DNA from: Alkalibacillus salilacus
GTDB taxonomy: Bacteria > Bacillota > Bacilli > Bacillales > Alkalibacillaceae
Reading direction: 5' to 3'
NCBI RefSeq assembly: GCF_030812915.1
Contig: NZ_JAUSTQ010000014.1
Coordinates: 1-53,385 of the forward strand
Length of the DNA: 53,385 bases
Shown: piece after piece, positions 9,905 to 53,295 of the stretch
Numbering within the stretch: position 1 is the first letter of the stretch
How the letters are laid out: each line of letters begins with the position of its first letter
Program-made: the position numbers and the translations under genes
The notes under the pieces: generated by a model
The model's input: the letters and a program-made list of their open reading frames with translations, nothing else
Databases searched by the model: none
What the model was told of the DNA's origin: nothing

Positions 9905-9985
9905 TGACTTAACTCAAAACTCCCCGAAGTTTTGAGTTAAGTCAGCTCATTTTTGAAATAAATAAGAGGATTTATTTCAAAAGTG
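9905..9985. repeat. Two adjacent perfect palindromes at the opp/thiolase boundary
   Basis: Arm 9905-9921 pairs with 9928-9944 over 17 bp without mismatch around the loop CCCCGA. Arm 9948-9963 pairs with 9970-9985 over 16 bp with one G-T pair. The forward arms contain TTTTGAGTTAA and TTTTGAAATAA exactly 21 nt apart. The second resembles units of the array at 35850-36000, so this looks like an inverted-pair form of the intergenic repeat family. No T run marks them as terminators. Confidence 0.75.
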
Positions 9986-10031
9986 AAGAACCAAAACCTT
10001 ATTGAACAAAAATTATAAAAAATCTGCAAAA

Positions 10032-10064
10032 TTGAACGAACGCTCAATCAATATATGTTATAAT
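10032..10064 (+). promoter_or_regulatory. Acyl-CoA operon promoter with a FadR/TetR-like operator
   Basis: TATAAT (10059-10064) is preceded by TG with one base between, an extended -10. TGAACGAACGCTCAATCA (10033-10050) is an inverted repeat covering the -35 region and shares 14 of 18 bases with the fadF operator. The TetR gene in this operon is the obvious candidate for binding both; FadR encoded elsewhere is the alternative. Confidence 0.65.
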
Positions 10065-10067
10065 ACA

Positions 10068-10081
10068 TGATAGCGGTTACA
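10068..10081 (+). promoter_or_regulatory. Catabolite-responsive element upstream of the acyl-CoA operon
   Basis: TGATAGCGGTTACA matches the cre consensus TGWAANCGNTNWCA at 13 of 14 positions. It sits directly downstream of the -10 element, over the predicted transcription start, so CcpA would block initiation when preferred sugars are present. Confidence 0.6.
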
Positions 10082-10102
10082 TAACGATAGAGGAGGTTTA
10101 TT

Positions 10103-11290
10103 ATGACAAAAACAGTCATTGTTGCAGGTGCTCGTACGCCGTTCGGTAAGTTCGGTGGCGCCTTAGCACCTTTAACAGCAGCTCAACTCGGAGGTATAGC
10201 GATTAAAGAGTCGCTGAAACGAGCGAATGTCGATGCAGCTGATGTGCAAGAAGTCATCATGGGATCAGTGCTTCAAGGTGGTCAAGGACAGCTACCATCA
10301 CGGCAAGCGTTACGTGAAGCTGGTCTGCCGTGGGGTACGAAAACAGAGACGATTAACAAAGTTTGTGCATCAGGCATGCGCAGTGTCGCTTTAGGTGACA
10401 TGCTCATTCGCCTCGGTGAAGAGGAGGTCATTGTCGCAGGTGGTATGGAAAGCATGAGCCAAGCGCCATATTTCATACCGAATGCACGATGGGGCTTCCG
10501 TATGGGGGATCAGAAAGTGAAAGACATGATGATTCATGATGGCCTAACATGCTCATTTGAAAATGTTCATATGGGAAGCTACGGTAATCGAACAGCTGAT
10601 AAATTTAATCTATCACGTGAACAACAAGATGAATGGGCAGCGCGCAGTCATGAACGCGCAGTTCAAGCAACAAAAGACGGTAAATTAGCTGATGAAATCG
10701 CGACTGTCGAAGTTCCACAACGGAAAAAAGATCCGATTCAAGTGACGGAAGATGAAGCACCACGTGAAGATACCACAGCCGAGAGCTTAGCTAAACTAAA
10801 ACCTGCTTTCGATAAAGATGGCACGATCACAGCAGGGAATGCACCTGGTGTTAACGATGGTGCCGCTTCAATGGTCTTAATGTCAGAAGACAAAGCCAAT
10901 CAAACTGGGCAAACGCCTCTTGCAACGATTTTAGGTCATGAAGAAGTGGCAGTTGAAGCTGAGCGTTTTCCAGAGACCCCAGGTATTGTGATTAACAACT
11001 TACTTGAAAAGACAGGTTATTCTAAAGACGATATCGACCTATTTGAAGTGAACGAAGCATTTGCGGCTGTATCACTTGCGAGTAGTGAGATCGCGGGACT
11101 TGATCCAGCAAAAGTTAACGTTAACGGTGGTGCCGTTGCCTTAGGTCACCCGATCGGCGCAAGTGGCGCGCGTATTATTCTAACTTTAGCCTACGAATTA
11201 AAACGTCGCGGAGGCGGATTAGGTATTGCGTCCATCTGCTCAGGAGGCGGCCAAGGTGACGCCTTATTAATCGAAGTACCGAAGCAATAA
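10103..11290 (+). CDS. Acetyl-CoA C-acetyltransferase (thiolase)
   Basis: This 395-residue thiolase reversibly cleaves acetoacetyl-CoA, or longer 3-ketoacyl-CoA, with CoA. The acylated cysteine is C88 in NKVCASGMRS; H349 (GHPIGASG) and C379 (CSGGGQGDA) complete the active site. The length is typical. It starts the acyl-CoA operon after an AGGAGG site. It resembles MmgA/ThlA-type enzymes. Chain-length preference cannot be read from the sequence. Confidence 0.9.
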   Translation: MTKTVIVAGARTPFGKFGGALAPLTAAQLGGIAIKESLKRANVDAADVQEVIMGSVLQGGQGQLPSRQALREAGLPWGTKTETINKVCASGMRSVALGDMLIRLGEEEVIVAGGMESMSQAPYFIPNARWGFRMGDQKVKDMMIHDGLTCSFENVHMGSYGNRTADKFNLSREQQDEWAARSHERAVQATKDGKLADEIATVEVPQRKKDPIQVTEDEAPREDTTAESLAKLKPAFDKDGTITAGNAPGVNDGAASMVLMSEDKANQTGQTPLATILGHEEVAVEAERFPETPGIVINNLLEKTGYSKDDIDLFEVNEAFAAVSLASSEIAGLDPAKVNVNGGAVALGHPIGASGARIILTLAYELKRRGGGLGIASICSGGGQGDALLIEVPKQ

Positions 11291-11307
11291 TTGAAGGAGG
11301 AATCGGC

Positions 11308-12159
11308 ATGGCAGTTCAAAACATTATGGTCGTTGGAGCTGGCCAAATGGGGGCAGGGATTGCTCAAGTTTTTGCCCAAGCTGGCTTCGACGTGAAACTA
11401 AATGATATCTCAGAAGAATCATTAACAAAAGGCTATCAAGGCATCGAAAAGCGACTTGATCGACAAATCGAAAAAGAACGCATCACAGCTGATGATAAGA
11501 CGAACACGTTGAACCAAATTCAGACAACGTCAGATATCAATGCTGCGAGTGATCGGGATTTAATTATTGAAGCGGTCGTCGAGACGATGGAAGTCAAAAC
11601 AAAGGTTTTTCAAAAACTTGATGAAGTCGCACCACAACACGCGATTTTAGCGACGAATACATCATCTTTACCCATTACGGATATCGCAGCGGTAACTAAT
11701 CGTCCTGAACAAGTAATCGGCATGCACTTTATGAATCCGGTGCCAGTGATGAAGCTCGTTGAAGTGATTCGTGCGATTCAGACAAGTGACGCATCTTATC
11801 AAACGATTCAAGAAGCAACTGAAAAGCTCGGTAAAACACCAGTTGAAGTGAATGACTATCCTGGTTTTATTTCTAACCGTGTCTTGATGCCAATGATTAA
11901 CGAAGCGATTTATACAGTCTTTGAAGGTGTTGCGAAACCTGAAGATGTTGATAGTGTCATGAAGCTTGGTATGAATCATCCCATGGGACCGCTTCAACTC
12001 GCTGATTTCATTGGATTAGATACATGTCTCTACATTATGGAAATTTTACACGAAGGCTTCGGCGACAGTAAGTATCGTCCGTGCCCACTGTTGCGTAAAT
12101 ACGTGAGTGCGGGGTGGTTAGGCAAGAAGTCAGGTCGTGGTTTTTACGTCTATGATTAA
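11308..12159 (+). CDS. 3-hydroxybutyryl-CoA / 3-hydroxyacyl-CoA dehydrogenase
   Basis: The 283-residue protein has an N-terminal Rossmann fold with GAGQMGAGIAQ (about 9-19) for NAD and the catalytic HFMNPVPVM region. It ends with the helical C-terminal domain. It oxidises 3-hydroxyacyl-CoA to 3-ketoacyl-CoA, the step before thiolase. It resembles MmgB/Hbd and lies 17 nt after the thiolase gene, with its own GGAGG. Confidence 0.9.
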   Translation: MAVQNIMVVGAGQMGAGIAQVFAQAGFDVKLNDISEESLTKGYQGIEKRLDRQIEKERITADDKTNTLNQIQTTSDINAASDRDLIIEAVVETMEVKTKVFQKLDEVAPQHAILATNTSSLPITDIAAVTNRPEQVIGMHFMNPVPVMKLVEVIRAIQTSDASYQTIQEATEKLGKTPVEVNDYPGFISNRVLMPMINEAIYTVFEGVAKPEDVDSVMKLGMNHPMGPLQLADFIGLDTCLYIMEILHEGFGDSKYRPCPLLRKYVSAGWLGKKSGRGFYVYD

Positions 12160-19430: not shown

Positions 19431-19585
19431 CGATATTTTTGGTATATCAGCGATTTCGTATATAATAGCGCCGATAATTAAGCGGTAACGGCGCCTTTAA
19501 AATTTTATCGGCGCCCTCGGAAATATAACGGCGCCTCAGCAAATATATCGGCGTTCGCTGAAATACAACGGCTGGCGCCGAAAAC
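19431..19585. repeat. Tandem 20-nt array with GGCGCC cores between icmF and rpoE
   Basis: Units of the form ATATAACGGCGCC recur with the core at 19490, 19510, 19530, 19550 and 19570, exactly 20 nt apart. More degenerate units in phase lie at 19430, 19450 and 19470. Flanks vary while the position of the core does not. No coding potential was recognised. The rest of the 402-nt gap (19361-19430 and 19586-19709) shows no clear feature apart from the rpoE upstream region. Confidence 0.8.
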
Positions 19586-25753: not shown

Positions 25754-25924
25754 ATCAAAATGCGAAGACTCCTGGTCGACTAAAAGCGGTCACGTCCTGT
25801 GACCAACGCCGACATTAGACCGTCCGGGTCGTCACGGGAACAGCACGAGACTCAAGACCCCGCAGGAAGTGCTTTTCTTCCGAGGAGGCTTGAGCCGTGC
25901 CCGCGGAAAGCGGAGCGTTTTGAT
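25754..25924 (+). repeat. Long structured interspersed repeat, copy 1 (with internal insertion)
   Basis: Outer arm ATCAAAATGC (25754-25763) pairs with GCGTTTTGAT (25915-25924). Inside, GCAC (25843-25846) pairs with GTGC (25897-25900), CTCAAG (25851-25856) with CTTGAG (25889-25894), and GGAAG (25865-25869) with CTTCC (25877-25881). CCTG and GGG (25771-25774, 25836-25838) can pair instead with CCCGCAGG (25859-25866), which is mutually exclusive with part of the other fold. A second copy at 28001-28158 keeps these pairings with different bases. Similar sequences recur in Bacillaceae genomes in my recollection; I know no established name. Confidence 0.8.
25775..25835 (+). ncRNA. Double hairpin resembling the Bacillaceae-1 RNA motif, inside repeat copy 1
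   Basis: GGTCAC (25788-25793), loop GTCCT and GTGACC (25799-25804) form a perfect hairpin. GACC (25818-25821), loop GTCCG and GGTC (25827-25830) form a second, extended by GAC with GTC. The published Bacillaceae-1 motif, as I remember it, consists of two hairpins with RUCCU loops. Copy 2 of the surrounding repeat lacks these about 60 nt, joining CCTG directly to TGGGAACAG. The name is a recollection and should be tested with its covariance model. Confidence 0.5.
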
Positions 25925-27546: not shown

Positions 27547-27591
27547 TCAACTCTGTTTCCACAGGATTCAGGGCAAGAAGGAGTGTTAAGC

Positions 27592-30973: not shown

Positions 30974-30978
30974 TTAAA

Positions 30979-31019
30979 AAGAGAGCGCATTCCCTATTTG
31001 AAAGGGGATGCGCTCTCTT
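30979..31019. terminator. Terminator after prmC, possibly bidirectional
   Basis: AAGAGAGCGCATTCCC (30979-30994) pairs with GGGGATGCGCTCTCTT (31004-31019) with one G-T pair. It has T residues after it and A residues before it, so it can serve prmC and the convergent acetyltransferase gene. Confidence 0.9.
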
Positions 31020-31023
31020 AATT

Positions 31024-31137
31024 TTTGAATAAACTGCTAAATTGTGAGACAATCCATCTCAATTATGAGACAATCCTACTTAATTATGAGACAATCCATC
31101 CCAATTATGAGACAATCCCAACTCATTATTTAATAAA
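31024..31137. repeat. Tandem 21-nt array between prmC and the minus-strand acetyltransferase
   Basis: Four near-identical units containing AATTATGAGACAATCC place TGAGAC at 31045, 31066, 31087 and 31108, exactly 21 nt apart. Degenerate units with TTTGAATAAAC and TTAATAAAC flank them. Each core reads ATTRT-GAG-AYAAT, a dyad. Confidence 0.85.
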
Positions 31138-31744: not shown

Positions 31745-31930
31745 TTGAGCGCAAGTTAAATTAAATGTGCGGCAATTAAAATAAATGAGCGATTTCCTAC
31801 CAGAATAGTGCGCCTAACAAAATAAATGAGCGCCATTCGAAATAATCGGGCGACTTCAAAAATAAATGAGCGACCTTCACTATTAATTGTGCGACTCCGA
31901 CTCCAACCCCGCCCCAATATGAGCGACCCT
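31745..31930. repeat. Tandem 20-21-nt array upstream of spoIIR
   Basis: Units of the type AAATAAATGAGCGAC place GCG at 31749, 31769, 31789, 31810, 31830, 31850, 31870 and 31891. Steps are 20, 20, 21, 20, 20, 20 and 21 nt, with one more unit at 31923 after a longer step. It fills most of the 358-nt divergent gap. The irregular step excludes a coding explanation. Confidence 0.85.
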
Positions 31931-31977
31931 CTTAATCATCCTAATCAATTTTCAATCATTCTACCATAAATCTAGAT

Positions 31978-32007
31978 GTATATCTTCAAGAAATCTCGGA
32001 AATGATG
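31978..32007 (+). promoter_or_regulatory. Sigma-F-like promoter of spoIIR
   Basis: GTATA (31978-31982), 15 nt, then GGAAATGATG (31998-32007). The sigma-F consensus, roughly GYATA then GGNRANANTW, is met except for one position. spoIIR is a forespore sigma-F gene in B. subtilis. The spoIIQ promoter has identical geometry. Confidence 0.65.
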
Positions 32008-32041
32008 AGATTACAAGATTACGAGAAAGGGTTGAGTGGGG

Positions 32042-32644: not shown

Positions 32645-32695
32645 TTTGTGAGAACGTCTCATAGCTTAATAGAAAAAGGCGAGGAGGCGTTCGAA

Positions 32696-33112: not shown

Positions 33113-33181
33113 CGATTGCACTTTCGGCGCATTCCTTCCATAATATAAACTAGCGATGGACGAGAGAAAAGGAGTACGACG

Positions 33182-34204
33182 ATGGAAACAAAACATTGGA
33201 CAAGTCATGATGAACTTAATAATCAGGCGATACAAGAAGCGGCTGATCGTTTAAAACAAGGTGAAACTATTGCGTTTCCAACTGAAACGGTTTACGGCTT
33301 AGGAGCAGATGCGACGAATGATCAAGCTGTTTCGCAAATTTTTCAAGCAAAAGGTCGCCCAGCTGATAATCCGCTCATTGCGCATGTTGGCTCGAGCGAT
33401 TTAATATATGATTATGTGACGGACGTATCAAAGGATGCTCAAGCTTTAATTAAAGCGTTTTGGCCAGGGCCTTTAACACTCATTTTACCTGCTAAGTCGA
33501 AACTTGCAGAAAAAGTAACAGCTGGTTTGACGACAGTTGGTTTTCGCATGCCGGATCATCCCGTTGCTTTGGCGTTGCTTCAGGCAGCAAACATACCAGT
33601 TGCGGCCCCGAGCGCCAATCGTTCTGGAAAACCGAGTCCAACTGCGGCTGACCATGTATTGCATGATTTAGACGGAAAAATCCATGGTGTATTAGATGGT
33701 GGAACGACCGGCGTTGGCGTTGAATCAACAGTTATTGATATGACACTCGATCCGCCGATGATTTTGCGACCAGGCGGTGTGACACAGACGGAAATTGAAG
33801 CCGTAATTGGCCCCGTCAACCTAGCCCCCTCTTTACAAGCAGAGGATGATGCACCACGTTCTCCGGGCATGAAGTATAAACATTATGCGCCTGACTGTCC
33901 GATTTGGATTGTAAAGGGTGGAGCCGAGCGCATGAAACAAGTGACTCATGACTTACAACAACAAGGCAAACGAATTGGCTTTATGGTTAGTGATGAGCGC
34001 GCGATAGAGTTGGATCAAGATCACATATATAGACTTGGATCACAAAAAGATTTACTAGCCATCACGCGTCATTTATACGACCGCCTACGTCAGATTGATG
34101 ACTCAGATTATGAGATTATTCTGGCTGAAGCATTCCCGAAAGAAGGAATCGGCGAAGCTTTAATGAATCGACTTGAAAAAGCAGCGAGCGAAACAATTGA
34201 ATGA
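33182..34204 (+). CDS. ywlC: Threonylcarbamoyl-AMP synthase (Sua5/YwlC type)
   Basis: The 340-residue enzyme makes threonylcarbamoyl-AMP from threonine, bicarbonate and ATP for the t6A37 tRNA modification. The N-terminal YrdC domain has GETIAFPTETVYGLGADA and KGRPADNPL. A C-terminal Sua5 domain begins near APRSPGMKYKHYAP. The two-domain form is the long Sua5 type. The start follows AAAGGAG. Confidence 0.94.
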   Translation: METKHWTSHDELNNQAIQEAADRLKQGETIAFPTETVYGLGADATNDQAVSQIFQAKGRPADNPLIAHVGSSDLIYDYVTDVSKDAQALIKAFWPGPLTLILPAKSKLAEKVTAGLTTVGFRMPDHPVALALLQAANIPVAAPSANRSGKPSPTAADHVLHDLDGKIHGVLDGGTTGVGVESTVIDMTLDPPMILRPGGVTQTEIEAVIGPVNLAPSLQAEDDAPRSPGMKYKHYAPDCPIWIVKGGAERMKQVTHDLQQQGKRIGFMVSDERAIELDQDHIYRLGSQKDLLAITRHLYDRLRQIDDSDYEIILAEAFPKEGIGEALMNRLEKAASETIE

Positions 34205-34284
34205 TTCATCACACGCGTTCTTCTAAACAGAGATAGACGAGCATAGATTAAACTAGAATGCTCGACGTTTAGGAGGATCCGCGT

Positions 34285-34830
34285 GTGATGTTTTTTTATG
34301 AGAGTGTAGTTCCTTATGTGTTAATAGCTTTTGCAATCGGAATGGATGCATTTTCCGTCAGTTTAACTGTTGGCATGACGCACAGACGTTTAAGATGGTG
34401 GCTGTACTTTGTTGTGCTTGTCGGGGCATTTCACGTGATGATGCCCTTGGCTGGTATTGGATTCGGTGAATTTTTGTCGGAACAGTTTGGTCAAATGGCT
34501 CAGGTCATTGGCGGTTGGATGCTTGTAGTGATTGGCATCCAAATGGTAATCTCAACGTTTTGGCAACATGATCTGAACAAGTCTTTATCCGTTTTTGGCT
34601 TAATGGTACTTGCCTTTACGGTTAGTTTAGATAGCTTTTCAGTAGGCGTATCGATCGGAATGATTGGTGCACATGTTTTTGTAATCGCGGTTATGTTTGG
34701 TCTTGTGAGTATGGTGTTAAGTTGGTTCGGCTTAATGTTAGCACGTCATAGTCGGAAATGGTTTGGTGTTTACTCTGAAGCGTTCGGTGGGCTCGTCCTG
34801 ACAGTTTTAGGTTTACAGATGGTGTGGTAA
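34285..34830 (+). CDS. mntP: Manganese efflux pump MntP
   Basis: The 181-residue membrane protein has six predicted helices in two repeats, each with an Asp motif: IGMDAFSVSLTVGM near residue 18 and SLDSFSVGVSIGM near 112, as in MntP/YwlD exporters of Mn(II). The B. subtilis ywlD lies at the same place. GTG 34285 has AGGAGG with 8-nt spacing; ATG 34288 is the alternative. A 7-bp hairpin (34238-34264) precedes the ribosome site, but no yybP-ykoY manganese riboswitch was recognised. Confidence 0.9.
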   Translation: MMFFYESVVPYVLIAFAIGMDAFSVSLTVGMTHRRLRWWLYFVVLVGAFHVMMPLAGIGFGEFLSEQFGQMAQVIGGWMLVVIGIQMVISTFWQHDLNKSLSVFGLMVLAFTVSLDSFSVGVSIGMIGAHVFVIAVMFGLVSMVLSWFGLMLARHSRKWFGVYSEAFGGLVLTVLGLQMVW

Positions 34831-34901
34831 ATGACATGACAAAGCACGCGTTTTCAAGTAAAATAGAATTGATGTTAAGTAGGAGTCAGGAGGGAAGCGC
34901 G

Positions 34902-35342
34902 TTGCATCGTGTATTATTTGTTTGTACAGGCAACACGTGTCGCAGTCCAATGGCTGAGGCGATTATGAAAGAGAAATATCCAGAAATTGATGTACAATCA
35001 GCCGGCATGATGGCGTCACATGGTCAACATGCCAATGGCAAAGCAGTCGAAGCAATGGACGGAAGAGGCATGATTCAAGAACATATATCACAGCCTGTTA
35101 CCCGTGAATTATTAAGTTGGGCTGATCTAGTTTTAACCATGACAAGCCAACATAAAGAAGCGTTAAAACTAGAGTACACGCACTTTGATGATAAGTTGTT
35201 TACGTTAAAAGAATTCCTCGATGAGCCCGAACATGATATTGCTGATCCAATTGGGTTTGATATTGAAACATATGAAAACACACGCGAACAATTAGAATAC
35301 TATATTGATTTATTAGTACAAAAAATGGAGGAAGAAACATGA
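34902..35342 (+). CDS. ywlE: Protein arginine phosphatase YwlE
   Basis: The 146-residue low-molecular-weight phosphatase has the P-loop CTGNTCRS (C8-S15) and the acid motif ADPIGFD. Thr in CTGNTCR corresponds to T11 of B. subtilis YwlE, the residue that selects phosphoarginine over phosphotyrosine. YwlE removes the McsB arginine marks that send proteins to ClpCP. TTG 34902 is chosen because AGGAGGG at 34888-34894 lies 7 nt upstream and the N-terminus then begins MHRVLFVCTG; the upstream extension to 34824 is not supported. The stop overlaps rpiB by 4 nt. Confidence 0.9.
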   Translation: MHRVLFVCTGNTCRSPMAEAIMKEKYPEIDVQSAGMMASHGQHANGKAVEAMDGRGMIQEHISQPVTRELLSWADLVLTMTSQHKEALKLEYTHFDDKLFTLKEFLDEPEHDIADPIGFDIETYENTREQLEYYIDLLVQKMEEET

Positions 35343-35779
35343 GAGTCATTTTAGCATCAGACCACGGCGGTCAAAATTTACGTGAAGACATTGCGAATCT
35401 ATTAGAAGAAATGAATGTTGAATTTGAAGATATAGGTTGCGACTGTGAAGGATCCGTTGATTATCCTGATTACGGGATTCCAGCAGCTGAGCGCGTAGCA
35501 AGTGGCGAATTCGATTACGGCATCGTCATTTGCGGGACAGGCATTGGCATGTCCATTTCAGCAAATAAAGTAAAAGGTGCGCGTTGTGCCCTTGTCCACG
35601 ACGTCTTTAGCGCAAAAGCAACCCGTCAACATAATGACGCCAATATTCTTGCGATGGGCGAGCGCGTCATTGGCCCAGGCCTAGCACGCGAGATCGTGAC
35701 CACGTTCTTATCAGAATCCTATGAAGGCGGTCGTCATGCGAATCGTGTTGAAAAAATGATGGCATACGAAAACCAATAA
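35339..35779 (+). CDS. rpiB: Ribose-5-phosphate isomerase B
   Basis: The 146-residue enzyme interconverts ribose 5-phosphate and ribulose 5-phosphate. It starts MRVILASDHGG and has the catalytic cysteine in VICGTGIGMSISANK, both typical of the RpiB/LacAB family. Its ATG overlaps the ywlE stop (ATGA), giving coupled translation, as for ywlE-ywlF in B. subtilis. Confidence 0.93.
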   Translation: MRVILASDHGGQNLREDIANLLEEMNVEFEDIGCDCEGSVDYPDYGIPAAERVASGEFDYGIVICGTGIGMSISANKVKGARCALVHDVFSAKATRQHNDANILAMGERVIGPGLAREIVTTFLSESYEGGRHANRVEKMMAYENQ

Positions 35780-35788
35780 TGGATGAGA

Positions 35789-35824
35789 AATCGAGGCGCT
35801 CTGATGAGTGCCTCGATTTTTTGT
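35789..35824 (+). terminator. Terminator after rpiB
   Basis: AATCGAGGC (35789-35797) pairs with GCCTCGATT (35810-35818), followed by TTTT. Confidence 0.9.
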
Positions 35825-35849
35825 CCTCTGAACTTATTAAATTAATCCG

Positions 35850-36000
35850 CTAATTTTTGAAATAACTAGGTTGAATTATGAGATAAACCCACCCAATAAT
35901 GAGATAACTTCAAAAATCCAAGCCAACTCGCTGAAGTATTTAAATAAATAAGCTCATTTATGAAATAACAACACGAAGTTATCTCATAAATTCAAGCAAA
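35850..36000. repeat. Tandem 21-nt array with an inverted unit, between rpiB and ywlG
   Basis: Units like AATTATGAGATAACTTC put TGA at 35858, 35879 and 35900. A further unit at 35961 is about three periods away, with weaker material between. At about 35972-35995 the sequence GAAGTTATCTCATAAATTC is the reverse complement of the same unit. The unit resembles those at 31024-31137 and the second palindrome at 9948. Nothing else is seen in this 328-nt gap apart from the rpiB terminator and the ywlG promoter. Confidence 0.75.
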
Positions 36001-36061
36001 AATCTAATAAATGAATGGCTAACATAGTCGAATAAAAAACATATACCTATTCAGAATTTTT

Positions 36062-36070
36062 TGTTATACT
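36062..36070 (+). promoter_or_regulatory. Extended -10 promoter of ywlG
   Basis: TGTTATACT is an extended -10 element 38 nt upstream of the ywlG start. No good -35 is visible. Confidence 0.4.
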
Positions 36071-36107
36071 TTGAAGTAGAAGAGTGCTCAGGTGAGGAGG
36101 GATTCGC

Positions 36108-36653
36108 ATGACATTAGAGACGTTTAAATCCGACGTAAAATCTGTGATGGATGAATGGCGACAATCCTATACAGTTAGACCTGGCAAGATCATGATTATC
36201 GGTTGTTCGACCAGTGAAATTAAAGGTGAAGCAATCGGTTCAGCTGGAAGCTCAGACTTCGCTGAAATTTTGTTCAAAGAACTGAAAGCGTTTCAACAAG
36301 ATACGGGCGTTCATATTGTTTTTCAATGTTGTGAGCACCTAAACCGTGCGATCGTATTAGAACGATCGCTACAACAAACGCTTGGGATTCCCGAAGTAAG
36401 TGCCGTCCCTCATGCGAAGGCAGGAGGCTCCATGGCTACTTATGCTTACCATCATATGGACGAGCCTGTTTTAATCGAATCGATCCAAGCCGACCTAGGC
36501 ATGGACATCGGTGACACTTTGATCGGAATGCATTTGAAACCCGTCGCTGTCCCGATTAGATTTCCTATTAAAACGCTTGGCGACGCCCATGTGACGTACG
36601 CTTATACACGGCCGAAATTAATCGGCGGTGAACGTGCGATTTATCACGCGTAA
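36108..36653 (+). CDS. ywlG: YwlG family protein (UPF0340)
   Basis: The 181-residue cytosolic protein of a conserved Firmicutes family has GCSTSEIKGEAIG near residue 31 and CCEHLNRAIVLER near 76. Its place between rpiB and glyA is the same as in B. subtilis. The biochemical role is not established. It starts after GAGGAGGG and is followed by a short hairpin before glyA. Confidence 0.88.
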   Translation: MTLETFKSDVKSVMDEWRQSYTVRPGKIMIIGCSTSEIKGEAIGSAGSSDFAEILFKELKAFQQDTGVHIVFQCCEHLNRAIVLERSLQQTLGIPEVSAVPHAKAGGSMATYAYHHMDEPVLIESIQADLGMDIGDTLIGMHLKPVAVPIRFPIKTLGDAHVTYAYTRPKLIGGERAIYHA

Positions 36654-36656
36654 TCT

Positions 36657-36680
36657 ATGTCAGCACTCAGTTGCTGACAT
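36657..36680 (+). other. Hairpin between ywlG and glyA
   Basis: ATGTCAGCA (36657-36665) pairs perfectly with TGCTGACAT (36672-36680) around CTCAGT. No T run follows, so it may be a processing or partial termination element immediately before the glyA ribosome site. Confidence 0.6.
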
Positions 36681-36704
36681 TATATACATAAGGAGGCTTT
36701 ACTC

Positions 36705-37952
36705 ATGACACATTTACACAATCAGTTAAACGAAGTAGACCCAGACATGCTTAAAGCGATTAACCAGGAGAAAAACCGTCAACACGACAAAATTGAATTA
36801 ATTGCGTCCGAAAACTTTGTCTCTGAAGCGGTAATGGAAGCAGCAGGCTCTGTTTTAACCAACAAATATGCAGAAGGCTATCCACATCGCCGTTATTACG
36901 GTGGCTGTGAATACGTGGATATCGCAGAAGACCTAGCGCGCGACCGTGCTAAAGAATTATTCGGTGCTGATCACGCCAACGTCCAGCCACATTCCGGTGC
37001 TCAGGCGAATATGGCCGTCTATTTTGCCGCGCTAAAACCAGGCGATACGATTCTAGGCATGAATTTAAATCACGGTGGGCACCTCACGCACGGAAGTCCT
37101 GTTAACTTCAGTGGTAAACTGTATAATGTCGTCGATTATGGCGTCGATGAAGATAGTGAAACGATCGACTATGACGCACTGTTAGAAAAGGCGAAAGAAG
37201 TTGAACCGAAGATGATTGTCGCAGGTGCTTCAGCTTATCCACGCCAAATTGACTTCAAAAAGTTCCGTGAAATCGCTGATGAAGTCGGTGCCTACTTACT
37301 CGTCGACATGGCCCATATTGCTGGCTTAGTTGCTGCTGGCCTACATCCAAGCCCAGTTCCGCATGCTCACTTTGTGACATCAACGACGCATAAAACATTA
37401 CGCGGCCCTCGTGGTGGCTTAATTTTATGTCAAGAAGATTTCAAGAAGAAGATTGATAGTAATGTGTTCCCTGGTATGCAAGGTGGACCACTTATGCATA
37501 TTATTGCAGCGAAAGGGGTAGCCTTTAAAGAAGCGCTCGATCCATCTTTTAAAGACTACTCTAAGCAAATTATTAACAATGCGAAACGCCTTGGTGAAGC
37601 CTTGAAACAAGAAGGTATTCGTTTGGTTTCTGACGGCACAGATAACCATCTGCTATTACTAGATGTTCGCCCACTTAACTTAACTGGAAAAGTTGCTGAA
37701 GCAGCGCTTGATGAAATCGGCGTCACAACGAATAAGAACACGATTCCATTTGACCCAGAAAGTCCGTTTGTCACAAGTGGTGTTCGTATTGGAACAGCAG
37801 CTGTCACAACACGTGGATTTGGCGAAGAAGAAATGGATGAGATTGCATCGATTATCGCGTTTACGCTAAATAATCATGAAGATGAAACAAAATTAGAAGA
37901 AGCGAAAGCTCGCGTTCAAAAACTAGCTGATCGTTTTCCAATGTATTCATAA
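36705..37952 (+). CDS. glyA: Serine hydroxymethyltransferase
   Basis: The 415-residue PLP enzyme converts serine and tetrahydrofolate to glycine and methylenetetrahydrofolate. The PLP lysine is K230 in [20 protein letters not shown] and PHSGAQAN are also present. It starts after AAGGAGG and ends in a terminator. The order ywlG-glyA-upp is conserved in Bacillus. Confidence 0.96.
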
Positions 37953-37955
37953 ACT

Positions 37956-37986
37956 AAAAGTGGTGAGTGATTCTCGCCACTTTTTT
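37956..37986 (+). terminator. Terminator after glyA
   Basis: AAAAGTGGTGAG (37956-37967) pairs with CTCGCCACTTTT (37973-37984), with one G-T pair, then further T. Confidence 0.9.
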
Positions 37987-38058
37987 CTGTGTGAACGTTG
38001 CATCTATCGACAGTTTTAGGTAAAATTCAAGAGATATTGTTTAAAGGAGTTGTTTGTT

Positions 38059-38688
38059 TTGGGTAAAGTTTACGTATTTGACCATCCATTGATTCAGCAT
38101 AAGATAACTTTCATCCGTGATAAAGAGACGGGCACAAAAGCTTTTCGTGAGCTTGTCGATGAAGTTTCCGCACTGATGATGTTTGAAATTACACGCGAAT
38201 TGCCTCTCGAAGAAGTTGAAGTTGAAACCCCTGTCGCCACCGCAAAATCGAACGTCTTAGCTGGTAAAAAAGTGGGCATTATCCCAATCCTCCGAGCTGG
38301 CTTAGGCATGGTCGATGGCATTGTTGATTTAATCCCAGCCGCTAAAATTGGCCACGTCGGCTTATACCGTGATCCCGAGACACTTAAACCAGTTGAATAT
38401 TATATTAAGTTACCATCTGATATTCATGAACGTGAACTGATTGTGACAGACCCAATGCTAGCAACAGGTGGTTCAGCGATTGAAGCCATTCATTCTCTTA
38501 AGAAACGTGGTGCGACGCATATTCGTTTAATGTGCTTAATCGCAGCGCCTGAAGGGGTTGAAGCCGTACAGGAAGCACATCCTGATATTGATATTTATGT
38601 CGCTGGCTTAGACGAAAAACTCAATGAAAAAGGTTACATTATTCCAGGCCTAGGCGACGCTGGAGATCGCTTGTTTGGAACGAAATAA
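38059..38688 (+). CDS. upp: Uracil phosphoribosyltransferase
   Basis: The 209-residue salvage enzyme converts uracil and PRPP to UMP. The PRPP motif [14 protein letters not shown] is at about 129-142, and the C-terminal uracil loop contains [16 protein letters not shown] 38059 is the likely start: AAAGGAG at 38043-38049 gives 9-nt spacing, and the N-terminus [15 protein letters not shown] matches B. subtilis Upp. In-frame TTG 38050 is too close to the ribosome site. Confidence 0.95.
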
Positions 38689-38692
38689 AGAC

Positions 38693-38720
38693 AAAACGAC
38701 AGCCATGTGCTGTCGTTTTT
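38693..38720 (+). terminator. Terminator after upp
   Basis: AAAACGACAGC (38693-38703) pairs with GCTGTCGTTTT (38709-38719) around a five-base loop, with T residues. Confidence 0.92.
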
Positions 38721-38730
38721 TACATTCTCG

Positions 38731-38845
38731 CACGATTGTTAAACAAACGCTCAACATTGTTAAATATTCTGCCGGAATTATTTCACAATCCCACAAAATT
38801 ATGAAACAATGTGCGGCGATTGTTAAATAACATGAATTGTGGCCC
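38731..38845. repeat. Tandem 21-nt array between upp and the protease gene
   Basis: ATTGTTAAACAA-type cores place ATT at 38735, 38756, 38777, 38798 and 38819, exactly 21 nt apart. Variants include ATTATTTCACAAT and ATTATGAAACAAT, so the dyad ATTRT-NNN-AYAAT is kept while the centre varies. Confidence 0.8.
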
Positions 38846-38938
38846 CAATATATTTTACTAAAAAACGCATTTCCCAATTTAAGTTTGCGCATAACCCCAT
38901 CACCTTTCGCTAACCCTAACAAGCGAAGGAGTGGTCGT

Positions 38939-41047
38939 ATGCGTTTTTTATTTGCTCTTACATTAACAATCATTATGACAACATCAACTGTTTTAGCTGA
39001 AGACATGACATGGATTGTCGAAATAGACGGTGACCCCGATCAAATAGCCGAGAAGATTAAGCGAGATTATCCTTTTCTTGAGGTACTTTATACATACGAT
39101 ACATTGTTACAAGCAGTAGCGATTAAAGGAGCACAGGACGATATTAAAGACCTACATCAAGAGACATGGGTGAATGATTATGATCGCGCGCAATCCTATG
39201 AATCGCCTGCTATTCAAAATCAGTCCTCATCACTCCCCGATGATCTTCCTAATTACCAAGTTGAATCGACTGATGCGACTGGAGAAGGCATTAAAGTCGG
39301 AGTGATCGACACAGGGATTGATTATACTCACCCTGATTTAAGTGCCCAGTATCAAGGTGGCTTTGATGTTATTGATTTTGACGAGGACCCAATGGAATCA
39401 ACGACGAAAGACGGCATGCCAACGAATCATGGGACACATGTAGCGGGGATCATTGCGGCTAATGGAGATATGGAGGGGGTTGCGCCTAATGCTTCAATTT
39501 ATGGTTATCGGGCGCTCGGGCCAGGTGGCGTTGGAACCTCGGCTCATGTCTTAGCAGCTCTTGAACAAGCAGTGAAAGATGACATGAATATTATTAACTT
39601 ATCACTTGGAACGAACATCAATTCACCTGATACCCCTCTTTCAAAAGCTGTTAATCAAGCATTTGATTTAGGTCATCTAATCGTCGTTGCATCAGGTAAT
39701 AGTGGACCGGAGGATTGGACTGTTTCGACACCCGCTACTGCTCAAAAAGCAATCACAGTTGGTGCGGGTTATACTGATCAATCACAAGCGACCATCGAAG
39801 TCTTTGATGGTAAATCCATACCAGTTAGACAAATGCCGCAAAGTGGGCCGTGGCCGATAGAAGAGCGCTTTCCTTATCAATATAAAATGGAAACAAACGG
39901 CACTACTAATCTACAGGGAAAAATTTTAATGGCAAACAAAAAAGATAAATCTTATACTAAACTCATCACTGAAGCGATTAAGACTGAAGCAGAAGCGTTA
40001 ATGATTGTAACGAATGAGGATCCGAATGATTGGACGGCGACCCCAACCACAATGCCAGTCATTGTCATCACGCAAGAAGAAGCAGACCGACTTCGCAAGC
40101 ATGAAACATGGATTGAAACATCAACACAACCTATTGAAGATGGAATTGCTGAATTTAGCGCACGTGGACCTGTGACAAGTGATTGGACGATTAAACCAGA
40201 TCTATTAGCACCTGGTGTTAATGTTATGAGCACTATTCCAGGTGGGTACGCCAATTTTCAAGGGACAAGCATGGCTGCTCCGTATGTGACAGGCGTATTA
40301 GCCCTTTTGAAACAGAATCAGCCGAACGCAACGCCAGAAGAATTAAAACAACAATTGCTATCACATGCGACCCCATTTAACCAAGATAGTCGTCCTAGTG
40401 AAGCAGGGAGTGGGTGGTTAGATGTCCAATCGTTGTTTGATTCAACTTATTACATCGAGTCTAATAAGCTCCAATTTGGTTATCATCAAGCTGATCAGCC
40501 ATCAAAAACGCAGTCTATCACCGTTCATAATACGGGTGAAGAACCACTAGATATCTCTTGGAATATTCCAAAACGTCATGAGCACATCAATTGGGAACTA
40601 CCACTTTCAGAAACAATTCCAGCTCATTCAGAAAAAACTTTTCCGATTCAAGCGCATTTTCACAAAAAATTCAAGAAGAAGGGTGTTCATGAAGGTTATC
40701 TTTCATTAGAATTGGATAGTGAGAGCGTCAATTTACCCTATTTAATTGTCGGTCAAGCTGCAGATTATCCTCGGATTAATGCCGAAATAGCTGTCGAACC
40801 TTTCGCTGAAGATGAAGCCATGTTAACCTATTATGTAGCTGATTCTTTGAAAGCCCTTTCAATAGACGTCTATGACGCATCGTTTAATCATGTCCAAACC
40901 ATTACAAAACAGCCAGATGTGTCATCAGGAAAACATGAAGAAAAAGTCGATATATCCCAGTGGTCGAGCGGTTTGTACTATGTCATGGTCCAAGCAAATG
41001 ATGGCGAACAAACCTTTGATCAAAGCATAGAATTTCATCGACCATAA
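38939..41047 (+). CDS. Secreted subtilisin-like serine protease (S8) with a PA-like insert
   Basis: The 702-residue exported protease has signal peptide MRFLFALTLT to TVLA (about 1-20), a propeptide region, and catalytic D124 (VIDTGID), H164 (NHGTHVAG), N254 (ASGNSG) and S444 (GTSMAAP). The long stretch between N254 and S444 (about 290-400) fits a protease-associated insert as in Vpr. A beta-rich C-terminal domain follows residue 480. ATG 38939 is set by AAGGAG at 38925-38930. Its place between upp and the atp operon is not that of B. subtilis vpr. The substrate is unknown; nutrition or wall-protein processing is possible. Confidence 0.9.
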   Translation: MRFLFALTLTIIMTTSTVLAEDMTWIVEIDGDPDQIAEKIKRDYPFLEVLYTYDTLLQAVAIKGAQDDIKDLHQETWVNDYDRAQSYESPAIQNQSSSLPDDLPNYQVESTDATGEGIKVGVIDTGIDYTHPDLSAQYQGGFDVIDFDEDPMESTTKDGMPTNHGTHVAGIIAANGDMEGVAPNASIYGYRALGPGGVGTSAHVLAALEQAVKDDMNIINLSLGTNINSPDTPLSKAVNQAFDLGHLIVVASGNSGPEDWTVSTPATAQKAITVGAGYTDQSQATIEVFDGKSIPVRQMPQSGPWPIEERFPYQYKMETNGTTNLQGKILMANKKDKSYTKLITEAIKTEAEALMIVTNEDPNDWTATPTTMPVIVITQEEADRLRKHETWIETSTQPIEDGIAEFSARGPVTSDWTIKPDLLAPGVNVMSTIPGGYANFQGTSMAAPYVTGVLALLKQNQPNATPEELKQQLLSHATPFNQDSRPSEAGSGWLDVQSLFDSTYYIESNKLQFGYHQADQPSKTQSITVHNTGEEPLDISWNIPKRHEHINWELPLSETIPAHSEKTFPIQAHFHKKFKKKGVHEGYLSLELDSESVNLPYLIVGQAADYPRINAEIAVEPFAEDEAMLTYYVADSLKALSIDVYDASFNHVQTITKQPDVSSGKHEEKVDISQWSSGLYYVMVQANDGEQTFDQSIEFHRP

Positions 41048-41093
41048 GTCACAAGAATGTCAAAAAAACGAACTAATTTCGTCATAATATCAA

Positions 41094-41122
41094 TTGACTT
41101 ATAAAGGGTGCTATTGTATGCT
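41094..41122 (+). promoter_or_regulatory. ATP synthase operon promoter
   Basis: TTGACT (41094-41099), 17 nt, TATGCT (41117-41122). The leader to atpZ is about 120 nt, with an ACGAAAAATGCTAACG region but no recognised regulatory RNA. Confidence 0.7.
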
Positions 41123-41249
41123 AATCTAGTGTGGAATGATTAGGCTTAAAGACGAAAAATGCTAACGAATGTTAGCTAACTCGTCTGATATGAACTGGTC
41201 TAATTCAACATATCGTTGTCTGATTTTATGTGATTGGTAGGTTACGCTT

Positions 41250-41461
41250 ATGAAGTACCCTGTGAAAGGGATGGCCATCACAACTGTTATTCTCAGTCAT
41301 TTGTCCGGATCAACCATCGTGGGGATCTTTGCGGGGCGATGGCTTGATAGCGTCACTCAGACAAGCCCTCTTTTTTTAATTATCGGGTTGTTCATTGGCT
41401 TAGCCGCAGGTGTCTACGGCACGATCAAGCTAGCTAATCAGTATTTAGGAGACGACACATC

Positions 41462-41465
<4 letters not shown>
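41250..41465 (+). CDS. atpZ: AtpZ, small membrane protein of the ATP synthase operon
   Basis: The 71-residue two-helix protein (about 8-30 and 39-61) with GSTIVGIFAGRWLD belongs to the AtpZ/AtpI family. AtpZ heads the atp operon of alkaliphilic Bacillus, where with AtpI it is proposed to help Mg2+ supply and c-ring assembly; B. subtilis has only AtpI. Its stop overlaps the atpI start by 4 nt. The ribosome site is weak (GGTAGG). Confidence 0.85.
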
Positions 41466-42575
<1,110 letters not shown>

Positions 42576-42594
42576 CATTATAAAATAATACTAA

Positions 42595-42834
<240 letters not shown>

Positions 42835-42861
42835 TAAGTCTTTATTGCATGACGTTGACAT

Positions 42862-42973
42862 AATGGCGAAGTGATCTTTGAAGCTTCGCCATTCCTTTAT
42901 GTTAGGTTGTAACAAGATGACTAAAAGGAAACCGAACTTTCGCATAATTGCGGTTGGAGACGTTTTTCCTTTT
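42862..42973 (+). other. Structured spacer between atpE and atpF
   Basis: AATGGCGAAG (42862-42871) pairs perfectly with CTTCGCCATT (42884-42893). AAAAGGAAA (42923-42931) pairs with TTTCCTTTT (42965-42973) and encloses CGCA-TAAT-TGCG. The 178-nt gap is far longer than the other gaps of this operon. Its likely role is protecting the atpE message, which is needed in about tenfold excess. No T run supports full termination. Confidence 0.65.
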
Positions 42974-42994
42974 AAGCCTTAAATGAATGATTAG

Positions 42995-45602
<2,608 letters not shown>

Positions 45603-45633
45603 TAAGGAGCAAGTCTCTAAATAAAGGTGGTGA

Positions 45634-47934
<2,301 letters not shown>

Positions 47935-47941
47935 TGGGACT

Positions 47942-48390
<449 letters not shown>

Positions 48391-48392
<2 letters not shown>

Positions 48393-48427
48393 AAAAGATC
48401 TGACCCAGATGGTCAGATCTTTTTTAT
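48391..48427 (+). terminator. Terminator of the ATP synthase operon
   Basis: AAAAAAGATCTGACC (48391-48405) pairs perfectly with GGTCAGATCTTTTTT (48411-48425). The stem overlaps the atpC stop codon. Confidence 0.95.
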
Positions 48428-48444
48428 ACCCGTACATCAGTGAA

Positions 48445-48610
48445 ACTGTTTAACAATCCGGACGAATTGTTAAACAGTTTATATGTAATGTTAAACAATC
48501 TAATAAGAATGTTTAACAAACTAGTGGGATTGTCTAACAATCTTATAGGATTATTTAACAATCGAGTTGAACTGGTAAATAAGGTGAGCAAAATGTTCAA
48601 TAACAGCCGT
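48445..48610. repeat. Tandem 21-nt array between the atp operon and ywzB
   Basis: Units with TTTAACAATC cores put the AAC cytosine at 48454, 48475, 48496, 48517, 48538 and 48559, a perfect 21-nt period, with a degenerate seventh at 48580. Because 21 is seven codons, a stop-free frame with heptads like LFNNLIR arises through it, but no ribosome site supports translation. The rest of this 382-nt gap shows no feature. Confidence 0.88.
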
Positions 48611-48774
48611 GTGTTCATTTTAAATAGAACGATCCACAACACTAGCCAAACGCATCAAAATATGAGAAAATATGACATTGTATGCTATTTAATAGGAATA
48701 CTCGATTGAAATTTCCCGGGAAATACATAGAAATGTCGAATATTACCTACGAAAAAACTTGAAGAGGTGTTATA

Positions 48775-51052: not shown

Positions 51053-51079
51053 TCTATTATAATTTATTCGGTTGATTAA

Positions 51080-52158: not shown

Positions 52159-52177
52159 AAAATTTTTCATTTAACAG

Positions 52178-52207
52178 GTATATTCATCACCTTTTCCGGT
52201 CAGAATG
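52178..52207 (+). promoter_or_regulatory. Sigma-F-like promoter of spoIIQ
   Basis: GTATA (52178-52182), 15 nt, then GGTCAGAATG (52198-52207), fitting the sigma-F consensus except one position. It places the transcription start near 52214, so an upstream ATG at 52205 cannot be the spoIIQ start. Confidence 0.65.
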
Positions 52208-52225
52208 GTTGCTGAGGTGATGAAA

Positions 52226-52903
52226 ATGAAGGAAAGAAACATGTTCCGTGAGTCGAAGTGGAAGAAACTCACACGTCAACGCTGGTTTTACCCGACCTTG
52301 TACGTCACGCTCGTCGCGGTTGTTTTAGCAGGTGTACTCACGTTTCAATTTGTCGGAAATGACGAAGCTGAACGAGACGATGAGTTCAACTGGAGTGTCG
52401 AGCAAAACGATTTAGAAAATCAGGAAGCACAAGGTGACGATGAAACGGCAGAACCAGTCGTAGCAGAATCCGAAGATATTGTCATGCCAGTGTTACTTGG
52501 TGACGATGCAGAAATCATGACACCATTCTACGACACAGAAGCTTCAGCAGAAGAACAAGAAGACGCGCTCATTTTTTACAATAATCAGTATTACCAAAGC
52601 CAAGGCGTTGACATTACATCTCAAAACAATGAATCATTCGACGTTATTTCAGCTCTGAGCGGAACCGTCGTCTCAGTTGAAGAGGATGAACTTCTCGGCC
52701 AAACAATTGAGATTGAACACGACGAAGAACGCTCAACATTCTACGCAAGTCTTTCAGAAGTCTCAGTAGAAGAAGGCGCTGACGTAAGCCAAGGTGATGT
52801 CATTGGACAATCAGGATCCAACGTTTATTCTGATGAAGACGTGACAAAAGTCCACTTCCGACTACTCGAAAACGGAGAACCCGTTAATCCACAATTCAAA
52901 TAA
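52226..52903 (+). CDS. spoIIQ: SpoIIQ, forespore LytM-domain protein
   Basis: The 225-residue protein has a basic N-terminus, one membrane helix (about 23-43), an acidic linker and a degenerate LytM/M23 domain (about 117-225). It forms the forespore half of the SpoIIQ-SpoIIIAH channel. The zinc-ligand positions are altered: S125 stands for His in the HxGxD motif (D129 kept) and K208 for the first His of HxH (H210 kept), so it should lack peptidase activity. ATG 52226 follows GAGGTGA. Confidence 0.92.
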   Translation: MKERNMFRESKWKKLTRQRWFYPTLYVTLVAVVLAGVLTFQFVGNDEAERDDEFNWSVEQNDLENQEAQGDDETAEPVVAESEDIVMPVLLGDDAEIMTPFYDTEASAEEQEDALIFYNNQYYQSQGVDITSQNNESFDVISALSGTVVSVEEDELLGQTIEIEHDEERSTFYASLSEVSVEEGADVSQGDVIGQSGSNVYSDEDVTKVHFRLLENGEPVNPQFK

Positions 52904-52911
52904 TGGAAGAG

Positions 52912-52937
52912 AAAGCCCTGCATTTGCAGGGCTTTTT
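52912..52937 (+). terminator. Terminator after spoIIQ
   Basis: AAAGCCCTGCA (52912-52922) pairs perfectly with TGCAGGGCTTT (52925-52935), with further T. Confidence 0.92.
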
Positions 52938-53021
52938 CTTGTTTAACTGGCAATCTACCGGCAGGATACTATTGAAAAAGTACGCTCTCGTACTTGATAA
53001 GATGTGTTACCAACGAGTTTT

Positions 53022-53295
53022 GTGGAGATATCATCTAGTTTGAGTAGAATATCATCCTGATTGTTCGGTTTCCATCTAGTTGAGGTACAGTATCATCGAG
53101 TTCAACAAGAATACCATCGAGTTGGAGTACAATATCATCGACACCTAGTGAAATACCATCGAGTCTAGTACATAACCACTGTGACACATGAAAATATATA
53201 TTTAGTCTAGGTGTTCCAATCGAATCTGTTAAAAATATCATGATGACTAAGTGCGATATCATCGAGTTTAGTTTGAATACCACCCCGATGGAGTC
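53022..53295. repeat. Tandem 21-nt array downstream of spoIIQ
   Basis: Units like AATATCATCGAGTTG place CAT at 53032, 53053, 53073, 53094, 53115, 53136 and 53157, with a CAC variant at 53177. Further units at 53239, 53260 and 53281 lie about three periods later and in phase. On the minus strand they give an open frame with repeats such as LDGI and VDDIV, which has no ribosome site. Positions 53296-53385 show no certain feature; GAGGTGGGG at 53372 may precede the next gene. Confidence 0.85.

Follow-up and report, generated by a model that had tools for sequence, protein, structure and literature searches.

Among the closest described counterparts of the intergenic arrays considered here are the REP/BIME elements of enterics and pseudomonads, which are likewise intergenic, lie outside transcription units, occur many times per genome and serve as targets of insertion sequences (IS). 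The arrays are unlike them in having no obligatory palindrome (the imperfect palindrome or stem-loop of REP/BIME has a counterpart only in those class C and A-type cores that contain palindromes), in being direct repeats at 20 or 21 nt and in falling into several core classes. The iterons of plasmid origins, direct repeats at about two helical turns on which one protein binds side by side, match the arrays in their spacing; the arrays differ in being chromosomal and numerous, at 27 loci within the 31% of the host genome that was sampled, and none of the 10 proteins scanned from the window (the whole 53,385-nt stretch of Alkalibacillus salilacus DNA analysed here) is a Rep-like replication initiator. 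With minisatellites (VNTR) the arrays share tandem units that are gained or lost whole, but in the arrays it is mainly the core that is conserved, the spacing outlasts the sequence and cores are common to different loci, as opposed to whole units being alike and decaying equally at all positions. CRISPR arrays have repeats of about 23-50 nt and spacers of about 26-72 nt, whereas repeat and spacer of the present arrays together span 20-21 nt. At the ends of certain transposons (IS21, Tn7, Mu), several binding sites for the transposase likewise follow one another at intervals of about 20 nt. Having searched 60 genomes, we rejected IS21 ends as an identity for the arrays: they show about two sites per end by eye, with different cores. 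The arrays do not form terminal repeats flanking an istAB element, and an IS21 transposase has no match in the host (G000) or its sister species (G005). IS256 ends inspected by eye are devoid of array cores. The TAACTGA direct repeats of the Beggiatoaceae (PMC4679880) are, like the arrays, short, intergenic and genome-wide; they differ in being one fixed heptamer every 7 nt, mostly facing a start codon. Among the open-access papers listed in literature searches, a scope in which subscription papers mostly do not fall, no title or abstract opening deals with such arrays, and Rfam at its gathering score gives two matches in the window, neither within an array. The features set out below suggest that the arrays belong to a system not described before, in which DNA serves for protein binding or as a landing pad.

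Periodicity, phase and genomic position

The preliminary description of the window named eight periodic stretches. Seven of these exceed 2000 dinucleotide shuffles in their recurrence at 20, 21 or 40-42 nt (five at p = 0.0005, 35850-36000 at 0.001 and 38731-38845 at 0.002), while 9905-9985 stays within the shuffle range (p = 0.086, 2000 shuffles). Inverted repeats are seen by eye in this last stretch. Among the 23 window gaps of at least 80 bp delimited by a crude ORF caller, p<0.01 is found only in the six resolved array gaps, the 53022 array being hidden under a spurious ORF in that gap list.

Table 1. Arrays and IS256-family ends in the window, with the state of the same gap in other genomes (G005, sister species)
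Position	Strand	Feature	Context	Same gap elsewhere
1..95	.	other IS256-family element end ...TTTACACAATTATATGGACTCTATC	contig edge; by-eye comparison with IS ends	
19431..19585	.	class A-type array ATAACGGCGCC, reverse GGCGCCGATA, 20-nt spacing	after terminator-like hairpin	same array plus one unit in G005
31037..31130	.	class C array AATTATGAGACAATCC, 21-nt spacing	convergent gap	class C array also in G005; other cores in G009, G010
31745..31930	.	array AAATAAATGAGCGAC, class G by motif, 20/21-nt spacing	divergent gap upstream of spoIIR	
35850..36000	.	class C array TTATGAGATAA, units partly inverted		CCGGCGAAAA array in G003 and G002; no array in G005
38731..38845	.	class C array ATTGTTAAACAAT	after terminator	one additional 21-nt unit in G005 (by eye)
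48445..48610	.	class C array ATTGTTTAACAAT, 21-nt spacing	after hairpin	gap-free alignment with G005: mismatches core 7/78, spacer 10/44
53022..53291	.	class B array TATCATCGAGTT / TACCATCGAG, 21-nt spacing	last stretch joined to, and array abutting, IS256 end at contig edge	
53292..53385	-	3' end of IS256-family element AGTCAAGTCCATAATTATGTGTAAAA...	contig edge; 11 genome copies of end	

The 20-21-nt periodicity is real and genome-wide in the host. Comparison with shuffled gaps, which had been proposed as a check on the first observation, bears it out: in the 853 kb sampled from the Alkalibacillus host (31% of the genome; gaps of at least 80 bp counted), chains of at least four units at 20 or 21 nt occupy 27 of 348 gaps, or some 8%, as against 2 of 348 shuffles. 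Across 217 host gaps (51 kb), identical 6-mers are found 110 times at lag 20 (23 expected) and 176 times at lag 21 (21 expected), with further peaks at 40-42, 60 and 63. Coding sequence is without excess at lag 20 (9 vs 13 shuffled) and shows 37 and 25 pairs at lags 21 and 42, vs 4 and 10 shuffled, which presumably come from codon structure. When motifs were picked from 1067 gaps without regard to their spacing, near-duplicate species being kept in, recurrence fell mostly at 20 nt (123) or 21 nt (271), and no other step rose above 23. Selection on helical phase or continual local turnover had been offered as explanations, and there are signs both of selection on spacing and of turnover. In addition to the two-turn spacing, spacings of 14-75 nt outside 19-22 hold a 10.4-nt phase (n = 233; z = 14.9, where 5000 jitters reach 11.1 at most). 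Gaps under the array threshold likewise hold this phase (n = 1650, z = 18.4), which is therefore not exclusive to called arrays.

Convergent gaps are the preferred location in the host, with arrays in 15 of 51 as against 12 of 297 other gaps (p = 2e-7). The earlier statement that most arrays start just after a terminator agrees by eye with the other confirmed arrays and fails for the divergent gap at 31684, which follows none. A terminator-consensus scan of 30900-48700 recovers two of the hairpins, 30979-31019 and 38693-38719, but not the ones that are visible by eye ahead of the arrays at 35850 and 48445; its total does not exceed that of shuffles (16 vs 15.5).

Core classes and their conservation

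Each unit consists of a core of about 12-13 bp and a spacer of about 8 bp, the latter nearly random in sequence. In 64 arrays, neighbouring units are identical at 0.68-0.86 of positions in a core 9-mer that was itself chosen for similarity, and at 0.33-0.42 in positions 12 to 18 after the start of the 9-mer, where random sequence gives 0.27. Cores had been thought to be locus-specific, but most fall in classes found at several loci: four classes occur on different contigs of the host, each with its typical spacing (35 of 36 class C steps are 21 nt; 32 of 44 class A steps are 20 nt, counting six arrays of which one fits A and B equally well), and no single core is common to all of them. The dyad ATTRT-NNN-AYAAT, which together with its relatives had been assigned to five loci, corresponds to class C in the window gaps at 30974, 35780, 38689 and 48393 and is not found at 9905. 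Whole-unit gains and losses and 42-nt higher-order repeats are also seen.

The comparison of orthologous gaps likewise called for at the outset shows that periodic arrays can be kept in the sister species, with cores changing less than spacers. In orthologous units, mismatches affect 147 of 1304 core and 135 of 734 spacer positions (19 out of 30 alignments, several of them reciprocal), and in four pairs without internal gaps 33 of 287 and 41 of 155, respectively (Fisher p = 9e-5); these rates come from few pairs, with cores defined by within-species similarity and ragged alignments between distant species. Sister species may carry different core classes in one gap.

In terms of distribution, arrays are present in many Bacillaceae, among them salt-loving and soil relatives of Bacillus. 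They are absent or weak in the Bacillus subtilis-group loci, so their role is dispensable in relatives. In a phylum-wide survey, which turned up 61 Bacillota genomes and covered 20 loci, each about 20 kb long, no clear array came to light. Summed over these loci, lag 21 reaches 68 and lag 20 reaches 33, each vs 20 expected, an excess that probably stems from coding sequence within gaps called wrongly; the lag-21 excess of one locus (L348) lies in a mis-called gap and was rejected as an array.

IS256-family insertion into the arrays

Insertion of IS256-family elements into these arrays is new; along with the core/spacer anatomy, the convergent-gap preference and the Bacillaceae distribution, it had been missed by the preliminary description. 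REP-targeting IS are reported by Tobes and Pareja (2006; PMC1525189) in the families IS3, IS110, IS4, IS256 and IS5. In the host, 8 of the 11 IS256-family copies stop at a class B core, and at least two phased cores lie beside 7 of these 8. Within the sampled 853 kb, the five class B arrays cover <1063 bp. The target centres are at -7 or +4/+5 from the core centre in 8 of 8 cases, i.e. at two unit phases, which suggests that the transposition machinery reads the core or whatever is bound there. This phase-locked insertion is claimed for the host genome only; in other genomes, judged by eye, the two centres are more variably placed, with about 2 to 7 bp between them.

IS256 copies also lie inside or beside arrays in eight further genomes (G005, G008, G067, G134, G086, G156, G068 and G104; 21 of the 30 loci L234-L263 were inspected, plus L235). 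Chains of at least five units occur beside IS256 at 5 of 25 loci, beside IS110 at 0 of 28 and beside IS21 at 0 of 26, the IS110 and IS21 loci being from other genomes of the same order (25 of 28 IS256, 28 of 30 IS110 and 26 of 30 IS21 loci analysed, short ones left out). Beside other IS they occur at 2 of 48 loci, in eight genomes picked because IS256 there sat in arrays (25 of 30 rve, 23 of 23 DDE_Tnp_1 and 8 of 10 IS256 loci analysed). At a looser cut of four units the counts are 8 of 25 for IS256, 0 of 28 for IS110, 2 of 26 for IS21 and 6 of 48 for other IS.

Seven insertion sites can be compared between the host and its sister species. At three of them the IS-free counterpart holds an array of the same class (L235 in G005; L225 and L233 in G000), at two an array of another class (L229 and the window end) and at two no array (L226, L231). 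The first three show that arrays need no IS, and they disfavour the idea that IS256 made the arrays.

Possible roles of the arrays

With confidence at about the midpoint of our scale, we hold that the arrays are platforms for a cooperatively binding, putative protein, being REP-like in place and as IS targets. We infer that one or a few related sequence-specific proteins would bind one core per two turns, so that the bound copies would all lie on the same helix face and could line up next to one another, forming a nucleoprotein filament of benefit to the host. Selection would hold the cores and the spacing and leave the spacer largely free, and unequal exchange would lengthen or shorten arrays by whole units. 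Sites between convergent genes, or from a terminator to the next promoter, would spare transcription, and by analogy with REP/BIME the arrays probably act at transcription-unit ends, where they would insulate, handle supercoils or anchor the nucleoid. The arrays also receive IS256-family elements, in the host genome at set unit phases. More tentatively, somewhat short of an even balance, we posit an undescribed element, widespread in Bacillaceae, that combines two-turn-locked cores, swappable classes, a host protein family and phase-locked IS256 safe harbours at transcription-unit ends. If right, this would be an overlooked layer of chromosome organization across a large bacterial group, with DNA-binding protein(s) behind it and a conserved spacing of exchangeable sequence; it would also show clearly that a transposon family can read intergenic elements of its host, helping to explain where IS256 goes.

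Alternatively, the arrays might matter chiefly to IS256-type transposons, as sinks or safe harbours whose core is read by the transposase or a partner; insertion would be steered off genes to the benefit of both host and transposon, and classes would shift as transposons shift. This we regard as unlikely, even though the concentration of ends at so few class B cores, the set phases in the host and the eight further genomes, with lower counts for the control IS, speak for it: arrays are strong in G001, G002, G003 and G010, where the IS256 search found none, copies lie outside arrays in G135 (4), G070 (4), G156 (2), G145 (1) and G117 (1), a single IS in G008 adjoins two core classes, and selection on any single sink is expected to be weak. 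It is quite unlikely that the arrays are neutral minisatellites, 20-21-nt units of unconstrained DNA that slippage or unequal crossing-over multiplied and mutation then changed. Neutral decay would strike core and spacer equally and disrupt the spacing, whereas steps concentrate on 20/21, cores change more slowly than spacers and are common to loci on different contigs; this strains a reading that draws on the whole-unit gain and loss, the higher-order repeats, the little-constrained gaps and the turnover between species.

We consider it improbable that the arrays are intrinsically curved or mechanically special DNA, the sequence acting only via helix-phased bending. The two-turn spacing and the phase held in other spacings fit this, but bending requires neither a shared 12-bp core per array nor classes common to loci, and lags 10-11 are without excess in the host. 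An RNA-level element, with transcribed repeats recognized by an RNA-binding protein, seems very improbable: some convergent arrays do sit, by eye, between a stop codon and the sole terminator seen, but others follow terminators or part divergent genes. Folded as DNA, six of eight arrays lie within the shuffle range (z = -1.53 to +1.00), a result on which a general stem-loop reading was rejected; the two exceptions, 48450-48590 (z = -5.5) and 19440-19580 (z = -2.9), both have palindromic cores.

Periodicity, unit structure and core classes

A period of 20 or 21 nt was claimed for eight intergenic stretches in the preliminary description, and it is real for seven of them, which exceed 2000 shuffles; the stretch at 9905-9985 does not. 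Across 217 gaps (51 kb), identical 6-mers recur 110 times at a lag of 20 nt (23 expected) and 176 times at 21 nt (21 expected), with further recurrence at multiples near 40-42, 60 and 63 nt. The genome of 2.73 Mb is in 30 contigs, contig 14 (53,385 bp) being the window. A sample covering 31% of that genome (853 kb) has 348 gaps of 80 bp or longer; chains of four or more units occupy 27 of these and chains of five or more 21, as against two and none in shuffles. Gaps are what a simple ORF finder with a 90-aa minimum left uncovered, and they may hide small genes.

The best 9-mer per gap, picked blind to spacing in 1067 gaps from the host genome and its relatives, exceeded in 105 gaps a threshold passed by five shuffles. 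Steps between adjacent units were of 21 nt (271), 20 nt (123), 22 nt (13) and 19 nt (8), with minor peaks at 11 (23), 31 (14), 41-42 (37) and 51-53 nt (22). Among 64 arrays in which three or more steps measure 20 or 21 nt, identity of adjacent units (random, 0.27) falls from 0.68-0.86 inside the 9-mer, through 0.45-0.64 at three or four positions flanking it on each side, to 0.33-0.42 in mid-spacer, and we therefore divide each unit into a core, some 12-13 bp long, and roughly 8 bp of spacer. With those of 19-22 nt excluded, spacings of 14-75 nt retain a 10.4-nt phase (n = 233, z = 14.9; maximum 11.1 in 5000 jitters), as do gaps under the array threshold, perhaps weak arrays themselves (n = 1650, z = 18.4).

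Assigned via motifs set by eye, the 27 arrays fall into classes C (9), A (6), B (4), D (2), G (2), E (1) and F (1), with two in no class; one array entered under A after an A/B tie (L205:14183) has a consensus, CGATGGTAA, that fits B. By eye, TCGxTGxTA is common to A and B. Both D arrays lie on contig 6, about 4 kb apart, and E and F occur once each in the host sample, E also in the sister species (G005). The sequences, earlier described as locus-specific, are better termed class-specific, since A, B, C and G are each present on different contigs and the steps are class-typical: 21 nt in C (35/36), D (12/12), E (6/6), F (3/3) and B (23/28), and 20 nt in A (32/44) and G (10/13). Arrays are found in 15 of 51 convergent gaps, compared with 6/75 +/+, 4/135 -/- and 2/87 divergent gaps (convergent versus all others, p = 2e-7). 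The ten window proteins that were scanned include release factor 1 (prfA), SpoIIR and a GNAT acetyltransferase, whose gene sits between two arrays.

Individual features of the window
Feature	Position	Remark
IS256 end	1-95	contig edge
Bacillaceae-1 RNA	25764-25831	Rfam match
L31-Firmicutes leader	27551-27583	Rfam match
ATTTCCCGGGAAAT	48711-48724	
IS256 end	53292-53385	contig edge

Divergence between species and breadth

In G005, where 46 proteins were mapped at a mean identity of 95.8%, five window arrays are still present, four with gain or loss of units by alignment or eye; in more distant species the same gap holds an array with a different core, or none. The prmC-GNAT gap carries class C in the host (G000) and G005, TTGGGGAATTA in G009, GCGCATAAAT in G010 and no array in G002 and G003, while G001 has a AATTATTGAATC array 3' of prmC with a different right-hand neighbour gene. 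After spoIIQ, class B in the host corresponds to a 21-nt ATACAGCGAAA array of class E type in G005 and a ATCAGCGCTCA array in G003. Over 19 orthologue alignments, several of them reciprocal, cores differ at 147/1304 positions and spacers at 135/734; in the four pairs that align with no internal gap the counts are 33/287 and 41/155 (p = 9e-5). Alignment gaps in the arrays of closer pairs are mainly whole units (20, 21, 40, 42), while those pairing with L094 and L161 align raggedly. A longer repeat, GGGAAcAGCACGmGTCTCGAGACCCC..., fills, in G005, the orthologues of the gaps at window 9829 and 35780 and, in G003, that of the gap at 30974; in other species these gaps are array-bearing or empty.

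Among 80 named Bacillaceae loci around spoIIR (up to 20 kb each), 33, tallied by hand from the table of counts, have an excess of 3-fold or more, with no fewer than 20 counts, at 20, 21, 40-42, 62 and 63 nt, including those of Amphibacillus, Salirhabdus, Filobacillus, Tenuibacillus, Virgibacillus, Metabacillus, Rossellomorea and Sutcliffiella. The excess is missing from spoIIR loci assigned to the groups of B. subtilis, B. licheniformis and B. pumilus. Twenty loci from other Bacillota held no clear array, though their summed counts at lag 21 were raised. A further type, the 51-53-nt array, occurs at L154, where 21 and 31 nt alternate, L103, L109 and L088. Three gaps of L074 (G036) hold 59-nt arrays with the words GGTGCC / GGGTCTG(G/A)CACC.

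IS256 elements at the arrays

At its right edge the window ends in an IS256-family element, represented by its 3' end (fragment match, 94 bits; whole-protein cut-off, 150 bits). Contig 1 opens with an IS256 copy, and the flank at the window's left edge does not match as its target duplication; rearrangement between copies may be the reason. Eleven copies of the 3' end occur in the host genome, eight of which abut a class B core (both orientations occur), with at least five class B cores at six, two at L225 and one at L226; those at L223, L224 and L230 lie elsewhere, not at a class B core. Class B arrays make up at most 1063 bp (an over-count) of the 853 kb sampled and its 105.5 kb of gap sequence, and against a generously set expectation of 10% the binomial p is 1e-6 for 8/11 and 2e-5 for 7/11. 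Assuming an 8-bp target duplication, with a single junction visible per host copy, all eight copies have their target centre at one of two distances from a core centre, modulo 21: -7 in four and +4/+5 in four; the two phases were spotted before computation, and a reverse-strand near-match at 0 (L227) and a weaker one at -6 (L226) were set aside. Such duplications are present in 17/17 full-length elements of other genomes with two ends found (best offset within 1 bp).

IS256 elements are also embedded in arrays with other cores in G005 (L235), G008 (L234, L241), G067 (L267), G156 (L272), G068 (L282), G104 (L281) and G134 (L323), and adjoin arrays in G134, G086 and G067 (L329); at L247 and L250 of G008 an array abuts the element on the single visible side. 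Across the order, chains of at least five units within about 800 bp accompany 5/25 IS256, 0/28 IS110 and 0/26 IS21 loci (p = 0.002); in eight genomes picked for the association the counts are 6/8 for IS256 and 2/48 for other IS. Against the link, 17 of these 25 IS256 loci have no chain of at least four, and copies lie outside arrays in G135 (4), G070 (4), G156 (2), G145 (1) and G117 (1); so do the members of a different IS256 subgroup in G009, G014 and G028 and the G013 copies looked at. Of these genomes, G028 was checked for arrays and holds them. At L371 (G008), an rve-type IS, not IS256, adjoins a ten-unit CCGCTCAAT array.

Seven insertion sites were compared between the host and G005: an IS-free array of the same class stands at three (L235, L225, L233), one of a different class at two (L229, A in G005; the window end, E type), and none at two (L226, L231). 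An array can thus exist without the IS, and IS256 elements most likely insert into arrays of earlier origin.

Possible role and affinities

A protein binding side by side would leave a conserved core, a free spacer, two-turn spacing and slower change in the core, and we put the chances at about even that the arrays are a platform for such a putative protein. Another reading, namely that serving as a landing pad is the main role of the arrays, we regard as unlikely. Conservation limited to the core separates the arrays from minisatellites; that they are neutral minisatellites is less probable still.

The arrays resemble REP elements in lying at transcription-unit ends and convergent gaps and in being IS targets, a published account naming IS of five families, IS256 included, as targeting REP elements (PMC1525189). 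They differ from REP elements in needing no palindrome and from CRISPR in unit size. We found no such arrays described in the open-access literature, judging by titles and abstract openings. No known family among those tested accommodates the arrays.

Separately, ATTTCCCGGGAAAT, which we take to match the Noc-binding site, lies upstream of a small, presumably ywzB-like gene, and by eye has counterparts within this gap in G001, G002, G003, G009 and G010.
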